DNA of 64,000 nt. Origin: an uncultured Flavobacteriales bacterium. Its GTDB lineage: Bacteria; Bacteroidota; Bacteroidia; Flavobacteriales_D; Parvicellaceae. This document shows positions 47,386 to 51,481 of the stretch, one piece after another. The notes beneath the pieces are model-generated. The model was not told the origin of the DNA and did no database searches. It worked only from the letters and a program-made list of their open reading frames with translations. A program made the position numbers and the translations under genes. The stretch spans positions 1-64,000 of the forward strand of contig CALSMU010000021.1 in assembly GCA_943787535.1 (NCBI GenBank), given 5' to 3'. Within the stretch, counting starts at the first letter, position 1. Each line of letters opens with the position of its first letter.

Positions 47386-47400
47386 CAGGCGCTGATTATG

Positions 47401-47474
47401 GTGGATGTAGCTCAGCTGGTTAGAGTATCGGTTTGTGGTACCGAGGGTCGCGGGTTCGAACCCCGTCTTCCACC
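47401..47474 (+). tRNA. tRNA-His (anticodon GTG)
   Basis: The sequence folds as a cloverleaf with anticodon loop TTGTGGT (anticodon GTG), D-arm GCTCAGCTGGTTAGAGT and T-arm GCGGGTTCGAACCCCGT. The acceptor GTGGATG/CTTCCAC has one T-T mismatch. The base before it is G and the discriminator is C, the G-1:C73 pair expected for tRNA-His; position 47400 is that G-1. CCA is not encoded. A strong terminator follows. Confidence 0.95.
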
Positions 47475-47484
47475 CCCCCAAAAC

Positions 47485-47515
47485 AAAAAAGGTCTTGTAC
47501 AACAAGACCTTTTTT
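47485..47515. terminator. Terminator between tRNA-His and the Fur-family gene
   Basis: GGTCTTGT and ACAAGACC form an 8-bp stem with a 3-base loop (47491-47509), flanked by six A and six T. It can end both the tRNA transcript and the convergent Fur-family gene. Confidence 0.85.
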
Positions 47516-47532
47516 GTTTTCTAACAAGTTAT

Positions 47533-47940
47533 TTATGAACAAATATTACATGTTCCGGTACCTTGAATCTCAATAGAATCTATTTTGAATCTTGGTATAT
47601 TTATTTCAGGAAATTCATGTAAGTCTAAGCAGAATATGTTTTCACACATTTTACATCTAAAATGGATATGCTGAGTAGTATGAACGTGATTTACGGATGA
47701 ACACTCATCCGGGCATAGGGCTAATTTTTTTATGTCACCTGGCATTACAATTTCATGAATCAATCCATTTTCGATAAAAGACTTAATTGTTCTATATAAA
47801 GTTATTCGATCAAATTGTTTTAATCGAGCTTCAATGTCTCCCAAAGCAATGGCGTTTGGTTCATTAATGAATACCTCAAGCACCTCTTTTCTGAAAGGTG
47901 TAAGGCGTAATTTTTTACTTTTTAATAATTTTTCTATCAC
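47533..47940 (-). CDS. Fur-family metalloregulator, probably Zur-like
   Basis: 135 residues from GTG 47940, with an in-frame stop immediately upstream. The N-terminal winged helix (LRLTPFRKEVLEVF, LKQFDRITLYRTIKSFIENGLI) has the Fur DNA-recognition helix. The C-terminal dimer domain carries the metal ligands in HVHTTQHIHFRC and two CxxC pairs (CKMC; CNIC) for the structural zinc. Assignment to zinc rather than iron or peroxide sensing rests on the divergent ZnuD-like receptor and is inference. A perfect palindrome begins two bases from its start codon, suggesting autorepression. Confidence 0.87.
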   Translation of the reverse strand: MIEKLLKSKKLRLTPFRKEVLEVFINEPNAIALGDIEARLKQFDRITLYRTIKSFIENGLIHEIVMPGDIKKLALCPDECSSVNHVHTTQHIHFRCKMCENIFCLDLHEFPEINIPRFKIDSIEIQGTGTCNICS

Positions 47941-47942
47941 TT

Positions 47943-47959
47943 ATGCAACAATGTTGCAT
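47943..47959. promoter_or_regulatory. Palindromic operator 1 (candidate Zur/Fur box)
   Basis: ATGCAACAATGTTGCAT is a perfect 8-1-8 palindrome directly upstream of the Fur-family GTG. Its core GCAAC-N3-GTTGC recurs in the second site at 47974-47990. The position would block transcription of the regulator itself. Confidence 0.65.
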
Positions 47960-47968
47960 TTTTATTTC

Positions 47969-47990
47969 TATGTTTGCAACATCGTTACAA
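47969..47990 (+). promoter_or_regulatory. TonB-receptor -7 box overlapped by operator 2
   Basis: TATGTTTG (47969-47976) matches TAnnTTTG, and the start of transcription would be near 47982, 13 bases before the receptor ATG. TTGCAACATCGTTACAA (47974-47990) is a 7-3-7 palindrome with one mismatch and the same core as operator 1 (GCAAC-N3-GTTRC). A repressor bound here would cover the -7 box and start site. Confidence 0.6.
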
Positions 47991-47994
47991 ATAT

Positions 47995-50265
47995 ATGAAA
48001 AGTCAGACATATAAATTGATGTTTTTAGCATTAATCTTCTTAGATTTTGCTTGTTGCTATTCTCAAGTTTTAAAGGGAGTGGTGCTTAATAGTGATACAA
48101 AAATTGGTGTGCCGGATGCCTACATTTATTCTTTTGACCTGGAAATAGGTAATTCAACAAATGAAAAGGGAAATTTCGAAATCTCGCAATTTCCTAAATA
48201 TAAATCCAAAATTTTGATTAGTGCGCATGGTTATGAAGATCAATCAATGTTTATTTCTTCAGATAGCATTATTACAATTTTGATGGAACCTAAACATGCA
48301 ATGTTAGATGAATTTGTTGTTGCTACACCTACAGGCAAGTTACAAGGTGAAAATATTACTTATGTTACTACAATTAAATTAAACGAGTCTGCCTCAATTA
48401 ACAACAATACAATTGGGGAGGTTTTAACAAATGCTCCAGGAGTTTATGTTGCGAGTGTAGGCAGAGGCATTAGTAAACCCGTTATAAGGGGTTTATCTGG
48501 AAATAGAGTGGTTACCTATTTGGATGGTTTAAGAATTGAAAATCAACAATGGGGTGGGGATCATGGAGTAGGAGTGACAGCACTTGGAATAGATAGGTTC
48601 GAAATTATCAAAGGGCCATCATCGTTGCTATATGGTTCAGATGCTATTGGCGGAGTTCTTTATTTCGTAGAAGCTCAATACGCAAAAAAAAATACCTCGA
48701 AATCTTTTATTGAAACATCTTTTGAATCTAACAGTCTTTCTAATAATACTAGTATAGGAAAACAATTTACGAAAGAAAATTCAAAGTTTAATTTTTTTTA
48801 TGGATCTTCTCTCAATGCTGATTATTCATTGCCTAATGGCCTTAGAATTCTTGATTCTAGGTTTGTATCGCAGGCATTTAAAACTTCCTATGGATATAAT
48901 AAAAATAGATGGAAGATTAATGTTCGATATAATTTTTCAAAATCCATAATTGGGATACCAGGTCACAGTCACAAAGATAGCATCTATACGGAATTGTTTT
49001 ACACTGATAAGCTTGACTGGAGAAGCACATTGCCATATCAAAATATTACAAACAACTTCATCAATGTGGAGAACAAGTTCTATTTTGATAAAAGTTATTT
49101 AACCATGCAAATAGGTCATACAATTAATAGTTCGAAAGAATTTGAAGAAAAAGTAACGATTCCAGGAATAGACATGCTCTTAAATTCATCTACCTTGAAT
49201 TTGAGATACGCTTATAAGTTCTCATCCATTTTAGAATTATTAAGTGGTGTTCAGGGTATGTATCAAAGAAATACGAATGGTAATAATGCTGAAGAAATAT
49301 TAATACCAAATTCCTTTACTACTGATTTAGGTATTTATTCAATTCTTTTTGCGGGTAATAAAAAATTGAAATTTCAGAGTGGATTACGAACTGATTACAG
49401 GATAATTAATGTGGATTCTCGAAATTTTCAAAAAGATTTTACAGGAATAAATTATGCTGTTGGTGGTGGCTATTTTACCAAAAGCTCAATTGTTAGGCTT
49501 AATCTATCGTCTGGTTTTCGCGCACCACACACATCAGAAATGATTGCTAATGGGATCCATCATGGCTCTTTTCAGTATGTTGTTGGAGATTTAGATTTAA
49601 TGACTGAAAATGCAAATCAAATAGATTTAATGTATGAATATAGTAATCAACATCTAGCAATTGTTTTCAATCCATTTTATAACCAAATTAAAAACTTTAT
49701 TTACCTGCAAAGGCAAGATTCAGTTATAGAGTCTTATCCAGTTTATAACTATGTTCAAAACGAAAAAGTGAATATGTATGGTGCTGATTTAGGAGTGCAT
49801 TACCACCCTCATTTTTTTCACAGACTTCACATTGAATCAAGTTACTCCTACTTAAGAGCAATTAATTCAAATAATGAATTTATAGATCAGATTCCACCTG
49901 GAAAATGGATGGCCAACATAAAAATTGAATTTGATGAAAAGGAAGGCTTTTATTTCAAGAATATTGTAATTCGGAATAATTTCATTTTAGCACAAAATGA
50001 GGTGGCTCCAAATGAAATACCTTCAAAAGGTTATAATCTATTAGATTTTGGAATAAACAGTGTTGTTAAAACAAAACAAAATGAAATTAATTTAAACGCT
50101 GGTGTAAAAAACATTTTGAACTGCAATTATGTCGACCACTTATCCAATCTAAAATATTTGAATATTGCTGGACCGGGCATTAATTATTACATCGGTATAA
50201 AATTTAACATAATAAATAAACAACAAAAACATGAAAAAAGTAATTTTAGGAATCTTAGCAATTAG
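47995..50265 (+). CDS. TonB-dependent receptor, ZnuD-like
   Basis: 756 residues from ATG 47995 (the ORF-track start is an upstream TTG inside the operator). Signal peptide 1-24; carboxypeptidase-regulatory-like domain about 25-105 (VLKGVVLNSDTKIGVPDAYIY); plug domain about 120-230 (IGEVLTNAPGVYVASVGRG, IKGPSSLLYGSDAIGGVLY); then a 22-strand barrel. Plug and barrel resemble the ZnuD group, including APHTSEMIANGIHHGSFQY. A His-rich extracellular-type segment (VHYHPHFFHRLH) and GIPGHSHKDS could bind metal. It imports a substrate across the outer membrane with TonB energy, probably zinc or a zinc complex. It overlaps the downstream small lipoprotein gene by 35 bp. Confidence 0.88.
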   Translation: MKSQTYKLMFLALIFLDFACCYSQVLKGVVLNSDTKIGVPDAYIYSFDLEIGNSTNEKGNFEISQFPKYKSKILISAHGYEDQSMFISSDSIITILMEPKHAMLDEFVVATPTGKLQGENITYVTTIKLNESASINNNTIGEVLTNAPGVYVASVGRGISKPVIRGLSGNRVVTYLDGLRIENQQWGGDHGVGVTALGIDRFEIIKGPSSLLYGSDAIGGVLYFVEAQYAKKNTSKSFIETSFESNSLSNNTSIGKQFTKENSKFNFFYGSSLNADYSLPNGLRILDSRFVSQAFKTSYGYNKNRWKINVRYNFSKSIIGIPGHSHKDSIYTELFYTDKLDWRSTLPYQNITNNFINVENKFYFDKSYLTMQIGHTINSSKEFEEKVTIPGIDMLLNSSTLNLRYAYKFSSILELLSGVQGMYQRNTNGNNAEEILIPNSFTTDLGIYSILFAGNKKLKFQSGLRTDYRIINVDSRNFQKDFTGINYAVGGGYFTKSSIVRLNLSSGFRAPHTSEMIANGIHHGSFQYVVGDLDLMTENANQIDLMYEYSNQHLAIVFNPFYNQIKNFIYLQRQDSVIESYPVYNYVQNEKVNMYGADLGVHYHPHFFHRLHIESSYSYLRAINSNNEFIDQIPPGKWMANIKIEFDEKEGFYFKNIVIRNNFILAQNEVAPNEIPSKGYNLLDFGINSVVKTKQNEINLNAGVKNILNCNYVDHLSNLKYLNIAGPGINYYIGIKFNIINKQQKHEKSNFRNLSN

Positions 50266-50449
50266 CGCAATTGGTTTTACATCTTGTAAAAAATGTTCAG
50301 AATGTCATTATGAAGCTTTGGATAGCTCCGGCATGGAAGTTGAAGTAGAGTTTGGAGAACATTGTGGTGATGATTTAAAAGACTTGGAATCAATTGGATA
50401 TCAATTGAGTGATGGAACTTTTGTAGATGTTCATTGCCACGCGCATTAA
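50231..50449 (+). CDS. Small Cys/His-rich lipoprotein, candidate metal-binding partner of the receptor
   Basis: 72 residues: lipoprotein signal IGFTSC (Cys 19), then KKCSECHYE, an acidic middle, FGEHCGDD and the end VDVHCHAH. Four cysteines besides the lipid-attached one, and four histidines in ~50 residues, with CxxCH and HCHAH groupings, suggest metal binding. It overlaps the 3' end of the TonB receptor by 35 bp in a different frame and is likely translated from the same message under the same repressor. I recognise no named family; a role in receiving metal in the periplasm is inference. Confidence 0.72.
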   Translation: MKKVILGILAISAIGFTSCKKCSECHYEALDSSGMEVEVEFGEHCGDDLKDLESIGYQLSDGTFVDVHCHAH

Positions 50450-50641: not shown

Positions 50642-51481
50642 ATGAAAAAATTGATTTTACTTATGCTTTCAATGTCTATTGGTCAATTTGTGCTTTCTCA
50701 AATTATCTACACGGATGTAACTCCTGACGATACATTGGTCCCTGATTATGTGTCGGATTCTCATTTGATTGATTTTAACGGTGATTTGACACCTGAGTTG
50801 GTTATTTTTTCTTCAAAACAAGACACGGTTATTACACTTCCTGTGACAATTAGTGGTTTAGCAATTTCTACTTTCGGAAATACAGAGATTATTGCGCAAA
50901 TTTCTACGATTGGGAATGAGGATGTTGTTATTGCTGACACGCTTTCACATGGATATTTAATTGATGGTAGCTCGGCATATTTGAGCTCAGCAACGCCTTC
51001 CGTTTTTCCTGGGGTTGGTTTAGGGATTAAGATAGACATAGTCAGTTTAACAGCTGGGGATTTCATCGACAATGGAAACCTTTTCTTTGGTGTTAAATTC
51101 GAATTAGGCACCAATATTCATTACGGATGGGTGCAAGTAAAAATTGCTACAGATGCAAGTTCGGGCATTATTTATGATTTTGCATATCAATCAATTGCAG
51201 ATTCAAGTATTTTGGCCGGTAACGTTGAGGATGGATTTGTTAGTATTTCGAATGGCAACTCAGAAGAGGTAGTTATATATGCGGCTAATAAAAAACTACA
51301 CGTTATAACAGGTAAAGATTCGGGAAGTCTAGTAATTCACAATCTCCTTGGCAAACAATTAATAAGCACTACCATTAATGGGAACATTAGCTTAGATATT
51401 AATGACCTTAGTAAAGGAATCTATTTAGTGTCATTTGCAAATGGCACAAGCACTATAACCAAGAAAGTTTATATTGAATAA
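50642..51481 (+). CDS. Secreted protein with T9SS type A sorting domain
   Basis: 279 residues: signal peptide 1-19; a beta-rich domain about 20-195 (acidic, with GVGLGIKIDIVSLTAGDFID and FFGVKFELGTNIHYGWVQVKI, a pattern common in secreted Bacteroidota proteins); and a C-terminal sorting domain about 200-279 (SLVIHNLLGKQLISTTI, DLSKGIYLVSF). It is exported to the surface or medium; the function of the main domain is unknown. It is not part of the upstream receptor operon, because a terminator and a new promoter intervene. Confidence 0.82.
   Translation: MKKLILLMLSMSIGQFVLSQIIYTDVTPDDTLVPDYVSDSHLIDFNGDLTPELVIFSSKQDTVITLPVTISGLAISTFGNTEIIAQISTIGNEDVVIADTLSHGYLIDGSSAYLSSATPSVFPGVGLGIKIDIVSLTAGDFIDNGNLFFGVKFELGTNIHYGWVQVKIATDASSGIIYDFAYQSIADSSILAGNVEDGFVSISNGNSEEVVIYAANKKLHVITGKDSGSLVIHNLLGKQLISTTINGNISLDINDLSKGIYLVSFANGTSTITKKVYIE

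Follow-up and report, generated by a model that had tools for sequence, protein, structure and literature searches.

The receptor ZnuD is under zinc-sensing control and holds a buried zinc site formed by D99, H100, E340 and H499 (PMC4557270). Zur regulons typically include TonB-dependent zinc receptors and COG0523 chaperones (PMC6103462), some Zur proteins are known to regulate their own expression (PMC4219657, PMC6103462), and C88, a zinc-site residue of E. coli Zur, lies 15 residues before C103 (PMC4219657). For lipoproteins of Bacteroidota, the sequence C-X-K-(D/E)2 serves as the signal for surface export (PMC5080379). A search of the open-access literature turned up no account of a Zur box, nor of a Zur-controlled zinc receptor, in Bacteroidota. 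Here we describe a locus of an uncultured Flavobacteriales bacterium, lying in a window (the whole stretch of DNA analysed) of 64,000 nucleotides, which comparative genomics supports, in line with the original prediction of a likely zinc-uptake unit, as very probably a Zur-controlled, ZnuD-like zinc-uptake unit, with zinc as the presumed metal.

The locus comprises a Zur-like repressor gene of the Fur family (47533-47940, minus strand, 135 aa, GTG start), a divergent gene for a ZnuD-like TonB-dependent receptor with a CarboxypepD-like N-terminal domain (47995-50265, plus strand, first ATG at 47995; Pfam plug, barrel and CarbopepD_reg_2), and a gene for a small Cys/His-rich lipoprotein of 72 aa (50231-50449, plus strand), a candidate partner of the receptor, whose ORF overlaps the 3' end of the receptor gene by 35 bp. 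Direct reading gave a gap of exactly 54 bp (47941-47994) between the repressor and receptor genes. A hairpin with a perfect 19-bp stem, read from the sequence at 47480-47520 between tRNA-His and the repressor stop, is likely a bidirectional terminator, and similar hairpins occur in sister genomes. No Rfam RNA except tRNA was found at the locus, and a sigma-70 promoter scan was uninformative for this phylum.

The divergent region had been predicted to carry a perfect palindrome against the repressor start and a second, related one on the receptor -7 box, and both were present. Zur box 1 (ATGCAACAATGTTGCAT, 8-1-8), the perfect palindrome, occupies 47943-47959, 2 bp from the repressor start, inside the repressor leader and the upstream portion of the receptor promoter. 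Zur box 2 (TTGCAACATCGTTACAA, 47974-47990) has one mismatch and overlaps the -7 elements predicted for both divergent promoters, namely TATGTTTG of the receptor (47969-47976, plus strand) and TATATTTG of the repressor (47988-47995, minus strand). Both elements match TANNTTTG, the established -7 consensus of Bacteroidota. The two boxes are conserved in orthologues, where the receptor -7 element is also kept beside box 2. Alignment of 82 sites from 45 distinct intergenic regions gave the 17-bp box consensus TTGCAACATTGTTGCAA; the receptor-side box was fused to the -7-like element in 33 of the 45 regions (loose match) and, at its other end, to the opposite, repressor -7 box in 25 of them (strict match). 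Since the box is joined to -7 elements at both ends, one bound dimer would block both promoters. Box 1 was also listed by a terminator scan, an assignment we rejected because its conserved pairing with box 2 fits an operator better.

The strict core shared by the two boxes, GCAACN3GTTRC, occurred at 8 distinct places in the 3.15-Mb genome, and with two of these at this locus, against a genome-wide rate that predicts about 1e-4 per 57 bp, and both conserved in orthologues, their occurrence here exceeds chance. The other strict matches in this genome appeared, as judged by eye, to lie inside coding sequence, and the strict regulon may thus consist of this locus alone. A loose search allowing up to 3 mismatches was not above chance in the 64-kb window alone, and genome-wide scans with 3 mismatches returned many matches; the significance of the boxes therefore derives from strict matching and conservation and not from the loose window search. 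Two ZIP genes found in this genome had no good box nearby.

Searching related genomes for the palindrome had been suggested as a check, and it was found conserved upstream of orthologues. Across 60 related genomes, every full-length orthologue with 46% identity or more had both boxes, 29-40 bp apart. Regulator homologues of 30-41% identity in the same set were without boxes upstream of themselves, and several of these Fur homologues still adjoin the same receptor and lipoprotein. Among 80 named GTDB loci (Brumimicrobium, Crocinitomix, Lishizhenia, Fluviicola, Flavicella and many MAGs), one or two boxes were seen in nearly all loci above 43% identity, the Brumimicrobium variant being ATGCAACAATATTGCAT; some Saprospiraceae carry related boxes. 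A box-like site in another locus (L100), matching at 12 of 14 positions, precedes a thioredoxin-reductase-like gene.

Of 299 genomes of the order, 7 contained the perfect box TTGCAACAWTGTTGCAA, once each, whereas the reversed control gave 0, and all seven occurrences precede zinc-type genes. Two stand before regulator-receptor genes (G076, G478), two before a receptor-lipoprotein-regulator operon (G020, G035), and one each before a second TonB receptor with a 202-aa lipoprotein (G184), MerC-FolE (G038) and a CobW-type GTPase (G010). The GTPase is ZigA-like (NCBIfam ZigA 555 bits, E 6e-167, curated cut-off 600). MerC-FolE was found behind the box in two genomes, and of the 16 genomes that carry a box only G010 has a MerC and only G010 a strong CobW/ZigA, each standing behind a perfect palindrome. 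An iron or peroxide regulon had been named as the finding that would speak against the prediction; no iron or peroxide gene stood behind a perfect box among the 7 occurrences, and the regulon follows zinc genes. In G051 a box precedes a lipoprotein-receptor pair of the second kind. Natural replacements of the cargo were also seen. A sister species (G002) retains only a fragment of the receptor, whose place under the same boxes is taken by another TonB receptor, accompanied by two other lipoproteins; a similar receptor-lipoprotein type stands beside a related regulator in G046 and behind the perfect box in G184. These swaps fit an exchangeable zinc cargo under one operator.

The repressor scored 27.1 bits with Pfam FUR (PF01475; gathering score 23.1) and carries two CxxC pairs that are invariant in 16 orthologues, which places it in the Fur superfamily; C76, C80, H87, H91, H93 and C104 were likewise invariant in the 16-sequence alignment. 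It fell far below every curated Zur model of NCBIfam, reaching 25.9 against the 167 bits required by NF008646, a gammaproteobacterial equivalog, and is therefore called Zur-like and not a member of NF008646. The Zur assignment comes from the operators: 7 of 7 perfect boxes lie before zinc-type genes, ZigA and MerC-FolE among them. Weak similarity to PerR models (26 bits) and to 2fe3, together with the fact that sequence alone cannot give metal specificity, leaves some room for a repressor that senses nickel, manganese, cobalt or peroxide and a receptor that carries that metal. We consider this very improbable, since the other targets of the box are zinc-starvation genes and C76/C80 lie 16-20 residues before the first CxxC, a position likened, by spacing only, to that of C88 in E. 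coli Zur (PMC4219657).

The receptor had been described as ZnuD-like, and among solved structures ZnuD indeed proved the closest, in sequence as well as in fold. The best NCBIfam model was ZnuD (E 1e-36), with 126.6 bits against a cut-off of 950, and we therefore write ZnuD-like and not ZnuD. The best solved sequence match was ZnuD 4rdr (4e-20, and 1.7e-40 in another search), and Foldseek placed ZnuD 4rdr/4rdt first for a confident structural model (pLDDT 85, pTM 0.83); the protein has the TonB-dependent receptor fold, with ZnuD as its nearest solved relative. Using the published sites (PMC4557270), a 14-residue offset for the crystal construct and a numbering in which K at 47998 is residue 1, D99/H100 of ZnuD align with D188/H189 and H499 with H521, accounting for three of the four buried-site ligands, and H241/H243 align with H323/H325 in loop L3. 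ZnuD E340 and E347 fall outside the aligned blocks, just before the second block, in the stretch corresponding to loop L4; E381 in L4, invariant in a 40-receptor alignment and present in 122 of 123 receptors of the larger set, is a candidate for the counterpart of the buried-site E340. The strand order of the model puts 320-346 (L3) and 383-390 (L4) outside and the turn 603-609 inside. Five histidines in or beside this turn (H601, H603, H605, H608 and H611) are invariant in 40/40 receptors, and the ZnuD alignment showed no counterpart of this periplasmic cluster.

Heme receptors come close to ZnuD here, the model TIGR01785 reaching 2e-34 in NCBIfam, and they too have a pair of histidines, one in the plug and one in a loop, that face each other (PMC4557270), so that the receptor might be thought to take up heme or another iron source under an iron-type Fur. 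ZnuD nevertheless ranked first in all three comparisons, with models, solved sequences and folds, D188 beside H189 and the HxH of L3 follow ZnuD, the box precedes ZigA and MerC-FolE, and another, canonical Fur-family gene is present elsewhere in the genome; we regard uptake of heme or iron as scarcely probable and zinc as the likely cargo.

The lipoprotein was found as predicted, with CSECH and HCHAH motifs and its gene overlapping the receptor 3' end. It carries a lipobox (TSC19) and four cysteines besides the lipidated one, and would be only about 54 residues long when mature. The family pattern is CxxCHY...VELGExCgDdLE...VHCHxH. Members occur in 77/199 genomes of the order, and in almost all the cases inspected the gene follows immediately after that of the receptor; 96 of 123 receptors of this family have the lipoprotein behind them. 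In the branch whose regulators are divergent, its gene separates the receptor and regulator genes. The two members scanned had no Pfam match, and the structural model, of moderate confidence (pLDDT 73), had no solved fold match. C-X-K, which is similar to the surface-export signal, follows the lipobox in 35/36 lipoproteins and the full C-X-K-(D/E)2 in 6/36, the window's protein being without the full signal.

Co-evolution of the lipoprotein with receptor loops L3 and L4 was first noticed in 40 receptors, where those without HxH in L3 were also without lipoprotein. A further 60 loci were fetched after the pattern had been noticed. Of all 123 loci, 119 agreed (95 with both, 24 with neither, 3 with HxH only and 1 with lipoprotein only; p 3e-21). 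The later-fetched loci alone gave 48, 7, 2 and 1, respectively (p 9e-7). A column scan of the whole receptor without the EH clade, uncorrected for relatedness, returned K385, H323 and H325 as the top three positions (next p 5e-4). Over the full set of 123 loci, K385, in L4, was present in 93/96 receptors with lipoprotein and 1/27 without, H323 in 96/96 and 3/27, and H325 in 95/96 and 6/27. All three lie on the outer face, at or near the peripheral zinc site of ZnuD. Outside the EH clade, D or E replaces H323 in most lipoprotein-less receptors, and a few (L159, L179, L356, L383) have His/Glu-rich inserts in L3 or L4.

The association could also stem from the history of the lineages, or from a switch of substrate by the receptor, without any functional contact between the two proteins, since one large clade, that of the EH receptors, supplies many of the lipoprotein-less cases and the receptor tree, built without the L3/L4 loops under a simple model, came from a quick search. 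We think this unlikely: the association holds without the EH clade and over several separate losses, and among 10 independent pairs on the tree that differ in lipoprotein, HxH changed in the same way in 7-8 and in the opposite way in 0 (median p 0.008). D188/H189 changes only once on the tree, lipoprotein-less receptors keep their periplasmic histidines, and many of them keep Zur boxes; H189/H521 are kept in nearly all of these receptors. Put most simply, the lipoprotein would take over, at the surface, a share of the zinc gathering for which ZnuD uses loops of its own. A lipoprotein facing the periplasm would instead take zinc from the histidine turn H601-H611 of the same zinc-uptake unit, the L3/L4 covariation being indirect; the turn is a short strand-to-strand turn, periplasmic by barrel topology, and most members have an incomplete surface-export signal. 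This too seems doubtful, as H605 is kept in 27/27 lipoprotein-less receptors, so that the histidine turn does not depend on the lipoprotein, and the lipoprotein-linked receptor residues are all on the outer face. That the lipoprotein is a surface zinc-delivery partner handing zinc to L3/L4 is plausible, and about as likely as not; the joint statement, a Zur-type zinc-uptake unit with the lipoprotein as surface partner, we consider likely.

We propose that, when zinc is plentiful, the zinc-loaded repressor would bind box 2 over both divergent -7 elements and also box 1 in the upstream receptor promoter and repressor leader, thereby shutting off itself as well as the receptor-lipoprotein operon, which would be expressed when zinc is scarce. 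The lipoprotein, outside the cell and presumably binding metal, would supply zinc to loops L3/L4 of the receptor, a putative ZnuD-like TonB-dependent zinc importer. Zinc would first reach H323/H325 in L3, then the buried site, made up of D188, H189 and H521 and probably of a glutamate in L4, for which E381 is a candidate, and would leave on the periplasmic side near the invariant five-histidine cluster. If true, receptor and lipoprotein would form a pair whose cargo is a bare metal ion, and lineages losing the lipoprotein would change the outer zinc site to acidic residues or, in a few cases, to His/Glu-rich inserts. With so specific a box, the zinc regulon of the group can be searched for directly, and the lipoprotein, which has no Pfam family, now has a testable partner, interface and substrate. 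The lipoprotein and its co-evolution with the receptor loops are the new part.

Comparison with known systems reveals likenesses as well as differences. The repressor shares with E. coli and proteobacterial Zur the Fur superfamily, a palindromic operator over the promoter and cysteines in the presumed sensing region (PMC4219657, PMC6103462), but it differs in scoring far below the curated Zur model, and its operator is TTGCAAC-N3-GTTGCAA, compared to the E. coli motif TRWNAYRWTATAWYRTNWCA (PMC6103462). PG1828-family lipoproteins (NF050142) resemble the lipoprotein in the leader and one CxxC, but the match, 29.3 against a cut-off of 50 bits, is restricted to residues 1-37, that is, the leader only, and was rejected, this model picking up many unrelated lipoprotein leaders. 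BtuG/BtuB-type pairs of Bacteroides likewise have a TonB-dependent transporter, and theirs has a surface lipoprotein as functional partner (PMC10404256); here, in contrast, the lipoprotein has about 54 mature residues, the presumed cargo is a metal ion, and the surface position and complex are proposals. ZnuD of Neisseria meningitidis (4rdr, 4rdt) is the nearest solved relative, a TonB-dependent zinc receptor in which D99/H100/H499 and the L3 histidines H241/H243 align and which gives the best fold match. It shows 19% identity over the fold, and the present system differs in its extra CarboxypepD-like N-terminal domain, its invariant periplasmic HxHPHxxHxxH turn and the lipoprotein gene behind the receptor.

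Next to the probable zinc-uptake unit of the window, a hairpin with a perfect 19-bp stem (47480-47520) lies between tRNA-His (47400-47477) and the repressor stop codon and is likely to be a bidirectional terminator; resembling hairpins are present in two sister genomes. The gene located 3' of the 72-residue lipoprotein gene encodes a T9SS-sorted secreted protein (50642-51481), which, as far as seen, falls outside the unit. For the inner-membrane step of zinc uptake, two ZIP-family genes of the same genome (G000:C13, 84357-84803 and 241799-242317) are candidates. No good Zur box was found near either gene in the surrounding loci (L384 and L385).

In the sister species G002 (locus L079, 8300-12299), the ZnuD-like receptor has decayed to a fragment, and a different TonB receptor, carrying an HHHHDE segment and accompanied by two lipoproteins of 209 and 155 residues, has taken its place under the conserved boxes. 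The receptor is gone and the regulator and boxes are retained in G012 (L081), where the gene on the other side of the boxes encodes a 160-residue protein, and in G051 (L087), where an L,D-transpeptidase-like gene occupies that place. His/Glu-rich insertions in outer loop L3 or L4 were found in the receptors of four loci (L159, L179, L356 and L383), all devoid of the lipoprotein.

A second TonB receptor-lipoprotein system adjoins Zur-like regulators or lies behind a box at L094, L095, L102 and L290. Its lipoprotein has 188-205 residues, and an additional lipoprotein at L094 carries HGHTHDH. The second-system lipoproteins tested (two of 188-189 residues, one of 156) matched no Pfam or NCBIfam family.

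Elsewhere, a box-like site (12/14) near 5098 of L100 (G010:C16) precedes a gene resembling thioredoxin reductase, behind which come others of apparently metal-related function; the site may reflect either chance or a metal-stress operon. A Fur paralogue of about 34% identity is encoded in G010 and G057 (L097 and L098). The stretch that separates the end of this gene from a short ORF, after which comes an RND-type efflux gene, contains TTGCAACTCACTTGCAT. The paralogue may regulate metal efflux through an operator of a related kind.
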